NCBI RefSeq assembly: GCF_900100255.1
Contig: NZ_FMTS01000002.1
Coordinates: 87,400-151,399, forward strand
DNA from: Asticcacaulis taihuensis
GTDB taxonomy: Bacteria; Pseudomonadota; Alphaproteobacteria; Caulobacterales; Caulobacteraceae
Reading direction: 5' to 3'
DNA: 64,000 bases
Under the pieces are notes generated by a model that saw nothing but the letters and a program-made list of their open reading frames with translations, did not search any database and was not told the origin of the DNA. The translations under genes were made by a program, and so were the position numbers. Position 1 is the first letter of the stretch. Every line of letters starts with the position of its first letter. Shown here one piece after another: positions 46,901 through 59,019 of the stretch.

Positions 46901-49735
46901 TTACTGGAACTTGTAGCTGACGCCGAAGAGGATCGTCTTGCCATATTCCTCATAGATTTCCGGATAGGACGAGCCATCCGCCGTCTTGTTCTCCGTCACC
47001 TTCAACTGGGTCTGGTAGTTGGAGTCGGTCAGGTTATAGCCCTGCAACAGGAAGGTGACGCCCTTGAGCGGGCCGTCCTGCATCTGGTAGCTGATCTGGG
47101 CATCGACCTGATCATCGGCCAGGATGCGGGCCGCCGCACGGTTGGCGTAGAGCGCATAGGTCTCGCCCAGGAAGGCCGAGCGGTAACGATAGCTCAGGCG
47201 CGCCGAGAAACCACCCCGTTCGTAATAGCCGGTCAGGTTGCCGACATCGCCGGAGAAGCCCGGCAATTTCGACGGATCGATATCATCGCCTGAGCGGATA
47301 TTGGTCCAGCCGCGCGAGAAGCTGCCGATCACGCCAAAGCCATTCAGCTTGTCCCAGACCAGGGCTCCATCCAGGGCGCCGCTGAATTCAATGCCGGAGA
47401 CGTTCTTGCCGCCGCCGATATTGCTGGCCGTGCCGTCATCATTGATCGGCAGGGTGAAACTGCCGATATTGCTGAGCGGCGTTACACCGCTGGTATTGGT
47501 CCAGCCGGTGAAGTCATAGTCGGAAACCGTCAGGTTGCGGATATAGTTGCGCATGACCTTCTGGAACCCGGCCACGCCGATATAGCTGGTCCGGTTGAAG
47601 TAGCGCTCATAAGCCAGGTCGACACCATCGGCGATCCACGGCTTCAGGTTAGGATTGCCGCCGGAGCCGCTCCAGGTCTGGGTCGTGAGGCTGACCGAAG
47701 CGTTGCGGCTGGCGCGCATGTCCTCCATGCGTGGACGCGCCATGGCGCGGCTCATGGCGAAGCGGAGCACAGAATTATCATCCATATCGTAGATCAGGTT
47801 CAGGCTCGGCAGGAAGTCGCCATATTCCTTGCTGGTCGAAACCCACTGACCGATCGCCGGCGAACCGCGCTGGATGATCTCGTTACCGGCCGAGGTCTGT
47901 TTGGCGCCGACATATTGCAGGCCCAGATTACCGCGCAGACCATGCCCGCCCATGGTCGTATCGATGTTCATCTTGGCGAACAGGGTCACCAGTTCTTCAT
48001 CGACCTGCCAGTACTTGTTGAGGTTGTCCTCGTTGAGGATGGCGCGACGGTCATAGTATTTGTCGAGCACGCTGCCCAAATCATAGGACAAGACCTTGCC
48101 GAAGCCGGCGAAATCGAGATTGGTCGGCTCCTGCAAATCAGCGGCATCCACGGCCACGCGGGTGCCGTGGCAATCATTGGTCGTCTGGTTCCAGCCCTTG
48201 AGGCAGAGATCCCATTCCTGCACGCCCTTTTCCTTGGTACGGTGCGAGTAATCAACGCCCAGTTCGATGCTCTTGAAGCCGGCCCAGTCCATATCATGCA
48301 CGCCGCTGAAACGCGCCGTCGCCAGTTGATCGACCACTTTCGGCTGACGGATGGCGCCGTCATGGCCCCAGCCACCCCAAGGCGCCACGTCGCCGAGATA
48401 GACATTATCGGCATCGGCATAGTTCAGACCCGGCGTAAGCTGCGGGAAATCGCCAAAGGCGATGTTCTCATCGATCGTATCGAAGGTGCGGCTGACCGGC
48501 GTGGGGTCGGTGCCATAGCCGGCATAGGTTTCGGCGATGCTTTCCTTGCGCACCGAACGCGAATAACCGAAATCAATCACCGACCGCCACGCACCGATGT
48601 TAAATCGGTTGTTCGAGCCGAAGGAGAACATCTCGTCGCGGCGCAAATTGTTGTCGTTGCGGATGATCGGCGCGATACCGCTGATCGTCGCCTGCTGCAC
48701 CACCGGCGTACCGCCACGATCGGAGACCACCACATTCGAGAAGTGGATATCGTCAGTCCATTGCGTCTGATACCACTGCGCACCGTGCGTCACTTCATTC
48801 TGGTCGAAGACCGAATAATAGAAATCGTTCACGCTGCGGAAATTGTCGTTCGGCTTGAAATCGAGCACGGCCATGTAGCCGTCGCGCGTCTGGCGGCGGG
48901 CGGTCGACCAGATTTCAACGCCGTGCAGGCCGAACGCATCGGCATTGCCGAGGCGCGGCAGGCCGGTGACCGAGTCATTGCCCTGCTTATCCCACCACCA
49001 GCTCTTGGAATGCTGCAATTCCGACGGATCATCAAGGTGCGCATAGGAGAGCGCGACGCCCAGCTTGCCATCCATGAACTGATCGATATAGGCTAGGCTA
49101 ATGCGGTTGCCGTTGGCGCTGTAGCCGGGCACGATCTCGCCATTGGTATTGACCGAACCACGCAGGTTCACCGAAATGACACGCTTGTTGTAATCGAGCG
49201 GGCGCACCGTATTCAGCACCACCGTGCCCGAAAGGCCCTGGCCGGTCAGGCCGGCATCCGGCGTCTTGTAGACGATGGCCGAGGAGACCATTTCAGACGG
49301 ATACTGGTCGAATTCGGCGGCGCGGTTGTCGCCGGAAGAGACCTGCATCCGGCCGTTCAGCAGCGTGGTCGAGAAATCGCCGGAAAGACCGCGAATGGAG
49401 ATGGTCTGCGAGCGGCCGCCGACGCGCTGCGCCGCCAGGCCCGGCAGACGCGCCAGGGATTCAGCGATCGAGGCATCCGGCAGCTTGCCGATATCTTCGG
49501 CCGAAACGGCTTCCACGATCGAGGTGTTCTTCTTCTTGATGGTCAGCGAATCCTGCAGGCCCTTGCGGATGCCGGTAACGATCACGACCTGGGTATCTTC
49601 GGCCGGCGCGGTCGCGGCCTCATCCTGAGCGTGGGCCACCATTGTCAGGCCGCCAAACGCAATGGCGCAGGCCGCCGTACTCATCAGAACCGTTTTAATG
49701 GACGCAGCATTCCTGCGTCGCGTGACAGATTTCAT
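46901..49735 (-). CDS. TonB-dependent receptor, Caulobacter/Xanthomonas type
   Basis: 944 residues from the ATG at 49735 (GGGGAGG six bases upstream; the ATG at 49738 is also possible). Signal peptide ending AHAQ, a TonB-box-like VVIVTG, plug domain (VEAVSAEDIGKLPDASIAES, TISIRGLSGDFSTTLLNGR), and a 22-strand barrel. This is the large receptor class for oligosaccharides. It imports the products of the outer-membrane/periplasmic hydrolases encoded downstream. A LacI-type operator lies 68 bases upstream of the start. Confidence 0.94.
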   Translation of the reverse strand: MKSVTRRRNAASIKTVLMSTAACAIAFGGLTMVAHAQDEAATAPAEDTQVVIVTGIRKGLQDSLTIKKKNTSIVEAVSAEDIGKLPDASIAESLARLPGLAAQRVGGRSQTISIRGLSGDFSTTLLNGRMQVSSGDNRAAEFDQYPSEMVSSAIVYKTPDAGLTGQGLSGTVVLNTVRPLDYNKRVISVNLRGSVNTNGEIVPGYSANGNRISLAYIDQFMDGKLGVALSYAHLDDPSELQHSKSWWWDKQGNDSVTGLPRLGNADAFGLHGVEIWSTARRQTRDGYMAVLDFKPNDNFRSVNDFYYSVFDQNEVTHGAQWYQTQWTDDIHFSNVVVSDRGGTPVVQQATISGIAPIIRNDNNLRRDEMFSFGSNNRFNIGAWRSVIDFGYSRSVRKESIAETYAGYGTDPTPVSRTFDTIDENIAFGDFPQLTPGLNYADADNVYLGDVAPWGGWGHDGAIRQPKVVDQLATARFSGVHDMDWAGFKSIELGVDYSHRTKEKGVQEWDLCLKGWNQTTNDCHGTRVAVDAADLQEPTNLDFAGFGKVLSYDLGSVLDKYYDRRAILNEDNLNKYWQVDEELVTLFAKMNIDTTMGGHGLRGNLGLQYVGAKQTSAGNEIIQRGSPAIGQWVSTSKEYGDFLPSLNLIYDMDDNSVLRFAMSRAMARPRMEDMRASRNASVSLTTQTWSGSGGNPNLKPWIADGVDLAYERYFNRTSYIGVAGFQKVMRNYIRNLTVSDYDFTGWTNTSGVTPLSNIGSFTLPINDDGTASNIGGGKNVSGIEFSGALDGALVWDKLNGFGVIGSFSRGWTNIRSGDDIDPSKLPGFSGDVGNLTGYYERGGFSARLSYRYRSAFLGETYALYANRAAARILADDQVDAQISYQMQDGPLKGVTFLLQGYNLTDSNYQTQLKVTENKTADGSSYPEIYEEYGKTILFGVSYKFQ

Positions 49736-55129: not shown

Positions 55130-56146
55130 GTGAAAGTCATCAAGCAAGCCATGACCAAGCCTGCCCGCCGCGCCTGTTCTCTGCTGCCCGCCGCCGCTCT
55201 TCTGACGGTGATTGCGGTGCCTTGCACGGCGCTCGCCAGTTCGTCCGGCCCCTATCTCAACTGGAACGCCAAGGCTCAGCCGGTTACGCAGGCGCCACCG
55301 CAGACCGAGCAGGTCCAGACCGCCACCGGCGCCTATCCCGTTCCGCCCTCGCCCTATGGCCAGGTCGGCGATCCTTGTGCCAAATCCTTACGCTGGCCCG
55401 CCAAACAGGCGCCGGCCGTGGCTTCGGTCTCCCCGCCGCCGCAGCCGGATTTCGCCCCGGTGCCGACCGCCTCCATACGCAATCCGGCGCCAGTTTCGGT
55501 GTCCCAGCCCGTGCCAATGACCGCGCCGAAGCCGGTGGCTGTGGTGCCCTTACCCGCCCCTGGGCCCGAACGCGAAGACCCCGGCCTGGCCGACGATCCC
55601 GACCTGACGCCCGAAGCGCCGGTCGCCGCACAGCCCTCACCGCCTCAAGCTGCCCGCAAGTCCGCGCCCGCTGTGGCGTCAGCGCCAACGCCTGCGCGCA
55701 CCGAAACCGCGCCGCCCTCGGCCGCCGTCGCCTCAGCCCTCAGCACCGACGGCGCCTACGAAGTGCCCGCGACAAGCAAATACGCCGCCCGCATCGCCGC
55801 AGCCCGCGCCGCCCAACTGCCAACTGCCGAAGCGCCCAAAACCGGCAAGCCAGAGGCCAAACAGACCGCCACCGCACCGGAACCCGATGTCTCCCTGGCC
55901 TCGCAGGAAACCGACCACGTCTTCATTCCCGGCGAGCACTACACCACACCGGCCGACGAACCACGCCTTTACAGCCTGCATCGCCAGTACGGGATGCGCC
56001 CCGATCCGATCACCGTCACACCCGACGCCACCGGCGCGCTGCTGACCGTTTCGCCGGAAGAAGGCGGCGATCCGAACGATGACGATAAGGCCAATGATCG
56101 TACTGGCAGCGATACCGGCAAAAAATCCGACACCGATAAGAACTGA
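55130..56146 (+). CDS. Proline/alanine-rich exported protein
   Basis: 338 residues with a GTG start (an ATG at 55151 is possible). Signal peptide about 8-37 (LLPAAALLTVIAVPCTALAS). The mature part is disordered, rich in Pro, Ala and Gln; the C-terminal third has HVFIPGEHYTTPADEPRLYS and ends with an acidic, Asp-rich tail. No family recognised. The composition suits a cell-envelope spacer. It shares strand with the DUF2336 gene downstream, which starts 67 bases after its stop. Confidence 0.65.
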   Translation: MKVIKQAMTKPARRACSLLPAAALLTVIAVPCTALASSSGPYLNWNAKAQPVTQAPPQTEQVQTATGAYPVPPSPYGQVGDPCAKSLRWPAKQAPAVASVSPPPQPDFAPVPTASIRNPAPVSVSQPVPMTAPKPVAVVPLPAPGPEREDPGLADDPDLTPEAPVAAQPSPPQAARKSAPAVASAPTPARTETAPPSAAVASALSTDGAYEVPATSKYAARIAAARAAQLPTAEAPKTGKPEAKQTATAPEPDVSLASQETDHVFIPGEHYTTPADEPRLYSLHRQYGMRPDPITVTPDATGALLTVSPEEGGDPNDDDKANDRTGSDTGKKSDTDKN

Positions 56147-56213
56147 TCGATACTCTCTAAACCTTCCCGCCAGCCAAAACCTTCTCAGCCAGAATGGCCC
56201 TCAAGGAAACAGA

Positions 56214-57311
56214 ATGTCCCGCGTCCCGACCTCAGCCCTGACCGACCTGATCGAACTGGCCCAGGAGCCCTCGAGCACCAAGCGCCGCGAACTGCTGCGC
56301 CAGGTGACCGGTATCTTCATGACCAATCCGGAAGAGATCAGCGGACCGGAAATGGAACTCTATGACTCGGTGATGAGCCAGCTCACCGCCGATATGGAAA
56401 CCCTGGTCCGCGCCGAAATCTCCACCACCATTTCCCAAACCCGCAACGCCCCGCTCGGCCTGCTGCGCCGTCTGGCCTCCGATGACATCGCCGTCGCCGA
56501 ACCGATCCTGACCCGCTCGCAGGCGCTCAGCGAAACCGATCTGATGCACATCGTCTCGACGCAGGGGCAGGATCACCTGCGCGCCGTTTCCAGGCGCGAC
56601 ACGGTGCCGGAAAGCGTCTCCGGCGTCATCGTCAACCGCGGCGACGACACCACCCTGCACACCCTCCTCAGCAATGACGGCGCCCGCCTGTCTCGCGCCA
56701 CCAACGAGCAGGTCATTCAGCGCGCCCAGGCCAATCCGGCCCTGCACGAAGTCGTGGTCAACCGCGCCGACATGCCGGTCGACCTGATGAACGACATGTA
56801 TTTTGTCGTCGAGGCCCGCCTGCGCGAACGCATCATGCGCGAAAACGAAAAGCTCGACCCCGCCGTGCTCGAACAGGCCCTGTCAAAGGGCCGCGACAAG
56901 GTGGCCGTGGCCTATGGCAGCTTCCCGGACGACTATGAGAAGATCTTCGCCGAGGTCGAATCCTTACGCCGCAATTCGCGCCTGACCCCAACCCTGCTCG
57001 CCAAGTACATGCGCGATCCGAACCCGACCTATTTCCTCTGCGCCCTGGCGCAGATGGCCGATATCGATTTCCTGACCGCCCGCCACCTGGTCGAGAAAAA
57101 GGAAATCGACGCGCTCGCCATCGCCTGCAAGGCCGCCGATCTCGACAAGGCGCTCTTCCTGACCTACGCCATGATCATGCTGTCCGACCAGGAAAACGCC
57201 ATGGGCAAGGCCAGCGAATACGGCCGGCTCTATACCGACCTGCCGCGCGACACGGCGCTTCGCACCATCCGCTTCTGGCGCCTCAGGCGCGCCGAAGGCC
57301 ACGCCGCTTAA
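56214..57311 (+). CDS. DUF2336 domain protein
   Basis: 365 residues from the ATG at 56214 (AAGGAAACAGA just upstream). DUF2336 helical-repeat protein of alphaproteobacteria: PTSALTDLIELAQEPSSTKR at the N-terminus, LLRRLASDDIAVAEPILTRS, and VSQ-type repeats. Function unknown; such proteins are common in Caulobacterales. Followed by a convergent block. Confidence 0.85.
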   Translation: MSRVPTSALTDLIELAQEPSSTKRRELLRQVTGIFMTNPEEISGPEMELYDSVMSQLTADMETLVRAEISTTISQTRNAPLGLLRRLASDDIAVAEPILTRSQALSETDLMHIVSTQGQDHLRAVSRRDTVPESVSGVIVNRGDDTTLHTLLSNDGARLSRATNEQVIQRAQANPALHEVVVNRADMPVDLMNDMYFVVEARLRERIMRENEKLDPAVLEQALSKGRDKVAVAYGSFPDDYEKIFAEVESLRRNSRLTPTLLAKYMRDPNPTYFLCALAQMADIDFLTARHLVEKKEIDALAIACKAADLDKALFLTYAMIMLSDQENAMGKASEYGRLYTDLPRDTALRTIRFWRLRRAEGHAA

Positions 57312-57441
57312 TCGGGCCTTTGTCCCGATTAAGCTTTTTTCTTAAGAAGATACCTCGCATCAGGGCTAGGCGCCCCCCTCGGCGCGCAGTCGCGCTTGCC
57401 AAAAATGCGATTAGTCATCGCCTTTTGGAAATCCATCCTTA

Positions 57442-57520
57442 TACCTCCCCAGTTTACTGGGGAGGGGGACCGCACGACGCGCGAAGCGCTAGATGCGGTG
57501 GTGGGGCTTCTTGCTTGCTT
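57442..57520 (+). repeat. B-type palindromic element
   Basis: Stem ACCTCCCCAGT...ACTGGGGAGG, inner GCACGACGCGCGAAGCGC...ATGCGG and end GGTGGTGGGGCTTCTTGCTT. In the 378-base gap between the DUF2336 gene and the convergent small gene at 57690. Confidence 0.9.
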
Positions 57521-57540
57521 CCTTCCCCCCGCCTCCAGGC

Positions 57541-57568
57541 AAAAAAAAGCCGCGCTAAACAGCGCGGC
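57541..57568 (-). terminator. Strong intrinsic terminator
   Basis: Minus strand: stem GCCGCGCT / AGCGCGGC, loop GTTT, followed by eight T. It ends the candidate small RNA described at 57541-57626. Confidence 0.9.
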
Positions 57569-57626
57569 CAGTTTACAGGGAGGAAACGCCCAGGAAGGGC
57601 AAAGACCTCGAACAAGGTCTAGGCCC
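57541..57626 (-). ncRNA. Candidate small regulatory RNA with anti-Shine-Dalgarno loops
   Basis: About 80-86 nt on the minus strand. Reading 5' to 3': an AGACCT/AGGTCT stem-loop (57603-57620); GCCC-UUCCU-GGGC, whose loop is anti-SD; GUUU-CCUCCCUGU-AAAC, whose loop CCUCCC is complementary to Shine-Dalgarno sequences; then the terminator stem with eight U. AAGGGC (57623-57628) can instead pair with GCCCTT to give a two-tier first hairpin. There is no open reading frame. C-rich anti-SD loops are the hallmark of several alphaproteobacterial trans-acting RNAs. The RNA is predicted, not observed. Confidence 0.6.
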
Positions 57627-57628
57627 TT

Positions 57629-57657
57629 CTTATAGCAGGCTGTTAGCGCTACCGCAA
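57629..57657 (-). promoter_or_regulatory. Promoter of the candidate small RNA
   Basis: Minus strand: -35 TTGCGG (57657-57652), 17-base spacer, -10 TATAAG (57634-57629). GCTATAAG also fits seven of eight positions of the Caulobacter housekeeping -10 (GCTANAWC). The spacer contains the palindrome TAGCGCTA (57644-57651), which could be a repressor site. Confidence 0.6.
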
Positions 57658-57658
57658 G

Positions 57659-57686
57659 AAAAAAATGACAGCGCTGTCATTTTTTT
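57659..57686. terminator. Bidirectional terminator-like perfect palindrome
   Basis: Seven A, TGACAGC/GCTGTCA, then seven T: a perfect 28-base palindrome starting three bases after the stop codon of the minus-strand gene at 57690. It fits as that gene's terminator, directly upstream of the small RNA promoter. Confidence 0.75.
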
Positions 57687-57689
57687 CGC

Positions 57690-57926
57690 TCACCCCTCTG
57701 CATTTGCGTGCAGGAACTTCGCCAGCGGTTCACGCAAGATCTGCGGCCCGGAAACCGCCGCCTCGAACAGGCGTTTCTGGATATCACGCGGCAGGTCGAA
57801 CCAGCGCATGACCACTGCCGTGCCCAGGGCCTGGACCAGTTCGCGTTCATCTTCGCGCAGGTCGTGGCCGGCCGAAAGGTTCCAGGCCAGATATGGCTTG
57901 CCGCCGTCAGATGCCTTTTCCATCAT
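57690..57926 (-). CDS. Small conserved-looking protein, unknown function
   Basis: 78 residues from the ATG at 57926. Soluble; EKASDGGKPYLAWNLSAGHD, then LREDERELVQALGTAVVMRW and FDLPRDIQKRLFEAA give a compact helical look. The start overlaps the stop of the upstream proline-rich small gene (ATGA), so the two are coupled. A terminator palindrome lies right after the stop. A longer frame to 58160 runs through the other gene and is not used. Confidence 0.65.
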   Translation of the reverse strand: MMEKASDGGKPYLAWNLSAGHDLREDERELVQALGTAVVMRWFDLPRDIQKRLFEAAVSGPQILREPLAKFLHANAEG

Positions 57927-58093
57927 ACCGCCTCCAGACCACGCGGCCCCCAGGCGTCCGGCGGCGGCAGGGGTTCCGGCACGGGTATAGGCTCCTCGCC
58001 TTTGGGGACTGGCGATATGTCGGGCACATCGGGGGCCGGATCGGACACGGGCGGCGGCGGATCGTCCTGAATATGGGTTGCAGTCAGGGTCAT
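57923..58093 (-). CDS. Small proline-rich protein
   Basis: 56 residues from the ATG at 58093 with GGGAG nine bases upstream. Mostly Pro, Asp and Glu (DDPPPPVSDPAPDVPDI; EEPIPVPEPLPPPDAW), so probably disordered. Its good ribosome binding site and coupling to the 78-residue gene support a real gene. Function unknown. Confidence 0.55.
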   Translation of the reverse strand: MTLTATHIQDDPPPPVSDPAPDVPDISPVPKGEEPIPVPEPLPPPDAWGPRGLEAV

Positions 58094-58436
58094 GGTGATG
58101 CTCCCGGATAGATATCGGACAGCGCAACCTAGCACTCACACCGTAAAATCCGCAGACCACAAACCGGCAGCTAAATCAAAATTTCATAAATACAGGAAAA
58201 ATCCCTTGTCCGTAAAACATATCCGCTTTTCACCAGACATCCGAAAAGCGAATACTTCCTGTCTATTTGCCATAGCGATAAGGCTTACAATCTCTTTACC
58301 ACGGTTACCGGCCATATGGATGACAATCTTACGGACCGGAGCGTAGGGTCTGCGCCGTGCCCGGCGATACTGGGCACGGCATCAATCACACACACCCTAA
58401 TGCCATCCCGCAGCCCCTGCGGGAAAAGGAGATACC
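58094..58436. other. Intergenic region with two leader hairpins
   Basis: 343 bases between divergent genes. The left half is A/T-rich and should hold the promoters in both directions; I could not fix a convincing -10/-35 pair. The right part holds two stems in the leader of the gene at 58437: GCCGTGCCC/GGGCACGGC (58354-58380) and CCCGCAG/CTGCGGG (58407-58423). The second ends six bases before the AGGAG ribosome binding site. Confidence 0.6.
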
Positions 58437-58973
58437 ATGCCCAGAAACAATGATGACCAACGCAATTCCCAATCCCGCGAACGCGACGAAGAGGGTCGCT
58501 TCACCAGCAATCCTGGTCGCTCATCCTCGCGCTATGACGATGACGACGACGATTACCGCACCCAGGGCCGCGACCGCGATGAAAACGGCCGCTTCACCAG
58601 TGGCCGCGACCGCTCCCAGGACGAGGACCGCGACTTTGAGGACTGGCACGCCTATGGCCATGCCCGCGGCTGGCACGCTCACCAGCAAGGCCGCCATGGT
58701 CAGGCCAACCGCAACCGTGATGAAGAAGGCCGCTTCACCCGTGGTGGGCGCGGCTCGCAAAATCGTGACGATGACCGCTCTTACGGGGCTACATCGGGAC
58801 AAGGCCGCGGCTGGCACGGCGATCCGGAAGGCCATGCCCGCGCCGGCAGTATGAGCCACGGTGGCTCGCAAAGCCGTGGCCGCGATTATGACGACGATGA
58901 TGATATGCGCGGTCGTGGTGCCACCAGCCGCGAACGCGACGACAACGGCCGCTTCGTCGGCAACCGCCACTAA
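58437..58973 (+). CDS. Disordered, highly charged repeat protein
   Basis: 178 residues, with AAGGAG ideally placed before the ATG. Composition is Asp, Arg, Gly, Asn, Ser and His, with almost no aliphatic residues. Four copies of a short motif are seen: RDEEGRFTS (17-25), RDENGRFTS (46-54), RDEEGRFTR and RDDNGRFVG near the end. HARGWHAHQQGRHGQ and QGRGWHGDPEGHARAG form a second repeat pair. It resembles small stress-induced hydrophilic proteins of alphaproteobacteria, but the function is unknown. No signal peptide, so cytoplasmic. Confidence 0.7.
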   Translation: MPRNNDDQRNSQSRERDEEGRFTSNPGRSSSRYDDDDDDYRTQGRDRDENGRFTSGRDRSQDEDRDFEDWHAYGHARGWHAHQQGRHGQANRNRDEEGRFTRGGRGSQNRDDDRSYGATSGQGRGWHGDPEGHARAGSMSHGGSQSRGRDYDDDDDMRGRGATSRERDDNGRFVGNRH

Positions 58974-59019
58974 CAAGAGTCAGATACTTTTAAACTGAAG
59001 CTTTGCATCGAGTGCGCAT

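Follow-up and report, generated by a model that had tools for sequence, protein, structure and literature searches.

Four small RNAs of Caulobacter crescentus, SisA-D (CCNA_R0014, R0133, R0143 and R0157), have been described as αR8 members carrying the 10-mer UUUCCUCCCU, which is presented there as single-stranded (PMC12559287), and all four loci are Hfq-enriched (PMC11005374). According to the accessible text of PMC12559287, SisA is nearly constitutive and uses the 10-mer to repress mRNAs, those of TonB receptors among them, and CrfA, an RNA induced at carbon starvation, pairs with all four siblings and lowers SisA in the manner of a sponge. The siblings differ in expression, no motif common to the sisA-D promoters was reported, and XylR is absent from the main text of that paper. 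MmgR of Sinorhizobium meliloti, the sole αr8 copy of that organism, belongs to the same Rfam family (RF00519, suhB), and its 10-mer affects PHB accumulation (PMC12559287). The second system of relevance is the XylR regulon of C. crescentus, for which XylR binding in strain CB15 is cited, the xyl-box is given as TGGTAGCGCTAACA and the clients described in the accessible text are protein genes (PMC10380989). The open-licence literature, as far as its text was accessible, held no report of an αr8 sRNA as an XylR client and nothing tying an αr8 RNA to XylR.

The window, by which the whole stretch of 64,000 nucleotides from Asticcacaulis taihuensis is meant, contains a small RNA gene with the following elements.

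57534..57607, minus strand: αr8/MmgR/SisA-family sRNA (Rfam RF00519), cmscan match to the full-length model
57541..57624, minus strand: likely mature RNA of about 84 nt, with the 5' end placed from the -10 element GCTATAAG and the 3' end from the terminator, and supported by the fold
57666..57679, minus strand: probable LacI-family operator TGACAGCGCTGTCA, from its copies in the genome and its invariance in five of five orthologues
57652..57657, minus strand: -35 element TTGCGG, from the sequence
57641..57654, minus strand: putative xyl-box-type operator CGGTAGCGCTAACA, overlapping the -35 element and the -35/-10 spacer
57644..57651, minus strand: palindrome core TAGCGCTA, from the sequence
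57629..57636, minus strand: -10 element GCTATAAG with TATAAG inside (57634-57629), from the sequence; TGCTAT is invariant in five of five orthologues
57603..57620, minus strand: 5' hairpin AGACCUUGUUCGAGGUCU / AGACCTTGTTCGAGGTCT, from the fold, with two two-sided pair changes among five orthologues
57588..57600, minus strand: GCCC-UUCCU-GGGC hairpin, from the fold, its pairs invariant in 39 of 39 copies
57577..57586, minus strand: αr8 seed 10-mer UUUCCUCCCU (DNA TTTCCTCCCT), anti-Shine-Dalgarno, equal to the SisA pairing site
57541..57569, minus strand: Rho-independent terminator with T8, from the pattern scan and the sequence

When the whole window was analysed with cmscan, a single match exceeded its gathering score, that to RF00519 suhB/MmgR (60.4 bits against 41, E 5.9e-10, model positions 1-77 of 77). 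By this match the window RNA is a new member of the known αr8/MmgR/SisA family, and an undescribed RNA family, as which the first-pass annotation had seen it, is ruled out. That it belongs to another described family, namely GcvB, SorX, anti-hemB or AbcR (αr15), is very improbable. In a restricted scan seven other Rfam families were listed, all of them under their own cut-offs; GcvB reached 33.7 bits, SorX 25.4 and anti-hemB 19.7, against gathering scores of 42, 46.6 and 49.5, whereas RF00519 lay well above its own. The available texts disagree on the name of the group, since the same four C. crescentus loci are filed under αr15 in PMC6561178 and named αR8 in PMC12559287, and the window RNA sides with αr8 because of its Rfam result.

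The likeness to SisA-D comprises the family, the 10-mer, the 5' hairpin, the terminator and the presence of several siblings per genome; with MmgR the window RNA shares the Rfam family and the conserved core. In the host genome three αr8 genes exceeded the cut-off, and a fourth match was weak. One sibling (L001) lies next to a gene for N-formylglutamate amidohydrolase (Pfam FGase, E 1.1e-67), as sisA does. Unlike it, the window copy lacks this linkage, a mark of sisA and not of the family, and is flanked by a 78-aa frame and a DUF2336 gene. It also differs from other copies in the sequence of its 5' hairpin, and from SisA-D in a promoter that carries an apparent xyl-box and a second LacI-type palindrome. 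To our knowledge, no sugar operator has been described at mmgR.

Members over the cut-off were present in all 25 Asticcacaulis genomes, each genome giving between 1 and 10 matches at E up to 0.001. The number varies strongly within the genus, from ten RF00519 matches (E <= 0.001) in one genome to one in another (G013 and G020). As a separate observation, the motif TGTAACnATAyGTGATC was noted within 140 bases of the core in 22 of 44 distinct Asticcacaulis αr8 upstream regions, those of the siblings L001, L005 and L006 included; the window copy is without it.

A stand-alone gene for an sRNA of the trans-acting type, with anti-Shine-Dalgarno elements and a terminator, had been proposed from the sequence, and it was borne out by the minus-strand elements and by the fold of the RNA 57624-57541. 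The latter has a predicted energy of -33.8 kcal/mol, against -20.95 +/- 3.02 for shuffled sequences (z -4.25; none of 200 as good). The promoter elements are located as proposed, with TTGCGG at 57657-57652, a 17-nt spacer and TATAAG at 57634-57629. A scan of 56000-59000 with the sigma-70 consensus listed no promoter; GCTATAAG resembles what we take to be the Caulobacter -10 consensus, GCTANAWC. The AGACCT/AGGTCT hairpin (AGACCTTGTTCGAGGTCT, 57620-57603), the GCCC-UUCCU-GGGC hairpin and the terminator, a 9-pair stem GGCCGCGCTGTTTAGCGCGGCT at 57569-57548 with eight T at 57548-57541 that the pattern scan also lists, were likewise confirmed. Three claims of the first-pass annotation fared less well. 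Its GUUU/AAAC hairpin occurs in the minimum-energy fold, though it is absent from the centroid and unpaired in the Rfam consensus; its four positions are pairable in 39 of 39 Asticcacaulis copies, the sole variation being U-A to U-G. Of the two anti-Shine-Dalgarno loops that it saw, the anti-Shine-Dalgarno elements stand, and the second 'hairpin' is the family 10-mer described as single-stranded. The 10-mer is unpaired in the centroid fold of the window RNA, and its mean unpaired probability is only 0.5 when it is folded in a longer stretch. Finally, mechanical frames, which are predictions only, do cover the gene (57320-57622 and 57396-57635, plus strand; 57454-57615, minus strand), where none had been thought to span it.

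Covariation was assessed on 39 Asticcacaulis copies out of 67 distinct ones, the other 28 being Caulobacter copies that were left out. Eleven pairs changed on both sides, a number reached in none of 500 shuffles. Helix 1 was only 52.6 % paired in this alignment because its register shifts between paralogues, and a slide by +1 outperformed the given register (covariation score 0.205 against 0.144; 44 against 39 cells with two-sided changes). The 5' hairpin therefore rests on the folding of individual copies: in each of the 74 distinct copies that were folded, many of them chosen by the operator pattern, a hairpin was predicted within the 26 bases preceding the core. Compensatory changes in the stems among relatives had been anticipated, and among the five orthologues helix 1 was 100 % paired with two pairs changed on both sides; 61 of 500 shuffles reach the same number. 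The GCCC/GGGC pairs do not vary in the 39 copies.

The palindrome in the promoter spacer, which had been taken as a hint of repressor control, is present as a sequence (TAGCGCTA, 57651-57644), and the promoter palindrome CGGTAGCGCTAACA is identical to the xyl-box at 13 of 14 positions, which makes it a candidate XylR-type operator. Its last 13 bases, GGTAGCGCTAACA, occur six times exactly in the host genome. With at most one mismatch 20 matches were found, two of which are both strands of one palindrome, in comparison to three for the reversed pattern. Besides the sRNA promoter, exact copies stand at the following places, mostly at genes of the xylose/xylan type.

L034: 68 bases before a TonB-receptor frame
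L037: before a GH39 gene, and before a divergent gene pair with GH43 in second place
L038: before an XylX-like gene of the FAA-hydrolase fold, after a LacI gene
L039: at most 50 bases from the predicted start of a glucuronyl-esterase-like gene
L036: before an HU-like gene

The segment L038:208-2648, in which the exact xyl-box lies between the XylX-like gene and the LacI gene, is probably the xylose locus of the host genome, and this arrangement of an XylR-like LacI gene beside an XylX-like gene is, together with the operator, the likeness of the host to the C. crescentus XylR regulon. The LacI protein shares 51 % identity and the stretch SPMTVSRVIN with a LacI protein of Caulobacter (L130), whose gene lies about 1.5 kb away from that of a short-chain dehydrogenase (XylB-like); the XylX-like proteins of the host and of Caulobacter are 62 % identical. 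Neither of the two L038 proteins, LacI and XylX-like, reached the cut-off of an NCBIfam model, and the names XylX, XylB and XylR for these proteins are our own assumption.

The second palindrome, TGACAGCGCTGTCA, was found at nine places in the host genome, three of them exact and six with one mismatch, and at none for the reversed pattern. The exact places are the sRNA promoter, L055 beside an ArgJ gene and L056 beside an unassigned secreted protein, with no evident sugar gene at L055 or L056. Among the one-mismatch places, two lie between a LacI gene and a GH3 gene and one at a further GH3 gene, and the other three are at zwf, at a LacI gene that exceeds the NCBIfam GntR cut-off and before an MFS transporter. 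The same 14-mer has been used as an artificial cre site for the LacI-family protein CcpA, from the motif TGWNANCGNTNWCA, as the accessible text of PMC10992428 has it, and its shape therefore fits the LacI/GalR family. Judged by its sequence, TGACAGCGCTGTCA is a probable second LacI-family operator, whose repressor would probably be of the glucose/glucoside class.

The palindrome at 57659-57686 around TGACAGCGCTGTCA had been assigned to the upstream gene as its terminator. This assignment did not hold: the pattern scan lists no terminator there and the core recurs as a LacI-type palindrome, and for these two reasons the element is better read as an operator. It is quite improbable that the palindromes are terminators or serve a neighbouring gene instead of the sRNA. 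Such a role could draw on the predicted folding of the whole palindrome together with its A and T runs (-12.6 kcal/mol), on a plus-strand frame starting at 57708 and on the divergent gene found upstream in two of the five orthologues (G002 and G023), which could share the operator sites. Against it, near-identical 14-mers stand at sugar genes, the xyl-box overlaps the -35 element of the sRNA itself, and the upstream gene of the window most likely shares the strand of the sRNA and stops short of the sites. The genes on either side are as follows.

57690..57926, minus strand: probable upstream gene of 78 aa, with no NCBIfam match and no Pfam match (the latter searched within a 156-aa frame)
56079..57311, plus strand: convergent downstream gene, DUF2336 (Pfam PF10098, E 3.1e-61)

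A protein 92 % identical to the 78-aa product is encoded in G017. Of the mismatches with G017, 11 of 18 fall at codon position 3 of the 78-aa frame; for the opposite frame, 10 of 15 fall at position 1. A base-composition rule prefers the opposite frame (57708-58070, plus strand). If real, that frame would place the upstream palindrome before a divergent gene, and the codon-position counts speak against it. The 78-aa frame is also the likelier gene than the 156-aa frame that contains it, for which no homologues were found in the genome contigs searched. With the upstream gene reading in the direction of the sRNA and stopping at 57690, and the downstream gene pointing towards it, no client of the sites other than the sRNA is evident in the window. 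Further along, at 58437-58973 (plus strand), a repetitive 178-aa frame rich in Arg and Asp, with repeats of the RDRDENGRF type, was noted; it had no Pfam match.

Orthologues were searched for in the 25 Asticcacaulis genomes with a 150-base query over gene and promoter. Five of these genomes have a promoter-containing orthologue; in the other 20 the match was confined to the sRNA body. All five orthologues keep TGACAGCGCTGTCA and TAGCGCTA without change, and the flanking bases vary; the outer bases of the xyl-box, for example, read CGTTAGCGCTAACA in G002 and CGTTAGCGCTATCA in G023. These data bear on the simplest alternative, in which the window copy is an αr8 sibling like any other, expressed constitutively or by growth phase, and the palindromes are incidental or are not repressor sites. 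The lack of such a promoter in 20 of 25 genomes would agree with this, as would the near-constitutive expression given for SisA (PMC12559287). What makes it unlikely is that two LacI-type palindromes of different sequence, both of them rare in the genome (six exact 13-mers; nine places with at most one mismatch), fall within 40 bp on one promoter, and that both cores are invariant in five of five orthologues while their flanks change.

Beyond Asticcacaulis, TAGCGCTA was found 28-58 bases before an αr8 core in 34 of 299 family genomes, belonging to two of 22 genera (5 Asticcacaulis and 29 Caulobacter genomes); the reversed pattern gave none. In named genomes the operator-plus-core pattern gave 22 loci, which came from Asticcacaulis sp. 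AC466, A. benevestitus, one Proteobacteria MAG, one uncultured Caulobacterales MAG and, in 18 cases, Caulobacter. A search that did not require the operator gave 69 places in 57 of 75 Caulobacter genomes. Counted by hand, 25 of these places have TAGCGCTA, seven have a palindrome that was judged by eye to be an altered one (e.g. TGTTAGCGGTACCA and TGTTAGCGTTATCA) and 37 have none; the last group, with other 5' hairpins, we think to be other siblings. When both searches were taken together, again by hand count, a Caulobacter sibling with TGTTAGCGCTANCA-type sites was present in 37 of 75 genomes, 30 with the exact TAGCGCTA and seven with an altered one. C. vibrioides DSM 9893 is among the Caulobacter genomes with a xyl-box-like palindrome at an αr8 sibling.

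In the operator-bearing Caulobacter loci compared, the 5' hairpin and the neighbours differ from those of the window copy, and the Caulobacter copy is a different αr8 sibling. Its palindrome lies at what we presume to be the -10 element, not in the spacer. Independent gain of the operator in Caulobacter and Asticcacaulis is plausible. The looser pattern TGNTAGCGCTANC exceeded its reversed control by a modest margin in three Caulobacter genomes (17 against 8, 14 against 5 and 8 against 6). Among 20 annotated TGNTAGCGCTANC loci several lie at XylX-like, LacI-near, TonB-receptor or glycosidase-like frames, named mostly by eye, and others lie inside unrelated genes.

The start regions of TonB-receptor genes were compared with those of 46 window genes for complementarity to the seed, with the use of the 30 of 45 TonB-receptor Plug matches for which loci were given. 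The receptors were not richer in complementarity, either by energy (p 0.98) or by longest match (p 0.79), some of the chosen starts being doubtful (L188, L205 and L206), and this negative test of 30 against 46 start regions speaks against TonB receptors as an enriched target class. Seed matches of 8 nt were found in two of the 30 receptors (L192 with GGAGGAAAC and L199 with GGGAGGAA) and in three of the 46 control genes. L199 is a TonB receptor of the window itself (49226-49534, minus strand; G000:C9:136625-136933) with GGGGAGGAACATGATG at the chosen start, eight bases of which are complementary to the αr8 seed. AGGGAGGAA precedes ATG at one place in the host genome, where there are two ATGs. 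At the TonB receptor L034 (1440-1545, minus strand), which has the xyl-box, the leader contains ACAGGGAGGA, which is complementary over 10 bases to UCCUCCCUGU, the αr8 seed extended by GU, in a single case without control; the combination of xyl-box and complement would permit a possible feed-forward or autolimiting loop. A CrfA homologue was not found by pattern, since the exact 11-mer CAGGGAGGAAA occurs in the host genome only opposite three αr8 genes.

Family membership, predicted structure, the operator-like sequences, their genomic company and their conservation form the basis of the reading that we favour. The window copy is probably a sugar-derepressed αr8 sibling, a feast-side counterpart of CrfA, in which LacI-family repressors would gate a trans-acting sRNA that represses mRNAs via the 10-mer. 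From the anatomy of the gene and the published work on SisA we infer repressor binding, induction, Hfq dependence and targets, and thus a sequence of derepression followed by Hfq-aided repression through the 10-mer. An XylR-type repressor would sit on the xyl-box over the -35 element and the spacer, and TGACAGCGCTGTCA, just upstream, would be occupied by another member of the LacI family, probably a repressor of the glucose/glucoside class. On entry of xylose, and probably also of glucose or glucosides, the repressors would leave and the RNA would be made. The RNA, most likely with Hfq, would then pair via UUUCCUCCCU(GU) with ribosome-binding regions and, like SisA in C. crescentus, repress mRNAs, those for alternative uptake systems for instance.

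The family itself is known; what looks new are the likely sugar-repressor sites in an αr8 promoter, which would make the RNA depend on the presence of plant sugars, xylose for example. The accessible text of PMC12559287 does not decide between redundant and independent action of the several αr8 siblings in Caulobacterales, nor does it settle how each one is controlled. A xyl-box-like site on one sibling in Asticcacaulis and in Caulobacter would provide a concrete answer, in that one copy reports the presence of sugar. If this is true, two studied systems, XylR and SisA/CrfA, would be connected. A broader proposal, to which we would give somewhat less than an even chance, is that an αr8 sibling gated by two sugar repressors is induced by sugar and forms, on the feast side, the counterpart of CrfA, the sponge made in starvation, that another sibling gained wiring of this kind on its own in Caulobacter, and that αr8 duplication with capture of a sugar operator is a recurrent route to post-transcriptional catabolite control in Caulobacterales. 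Under the sugar-derepressed reading, the C. crescentus sibling carrying TGTTAGCGCTATCA, if there is one, would be the xylose-induced one, and if the laboratory strain of C. crescentus has the same wiring, the xylose used there for gene induction would also switch a broad post-transcriptional repressor.
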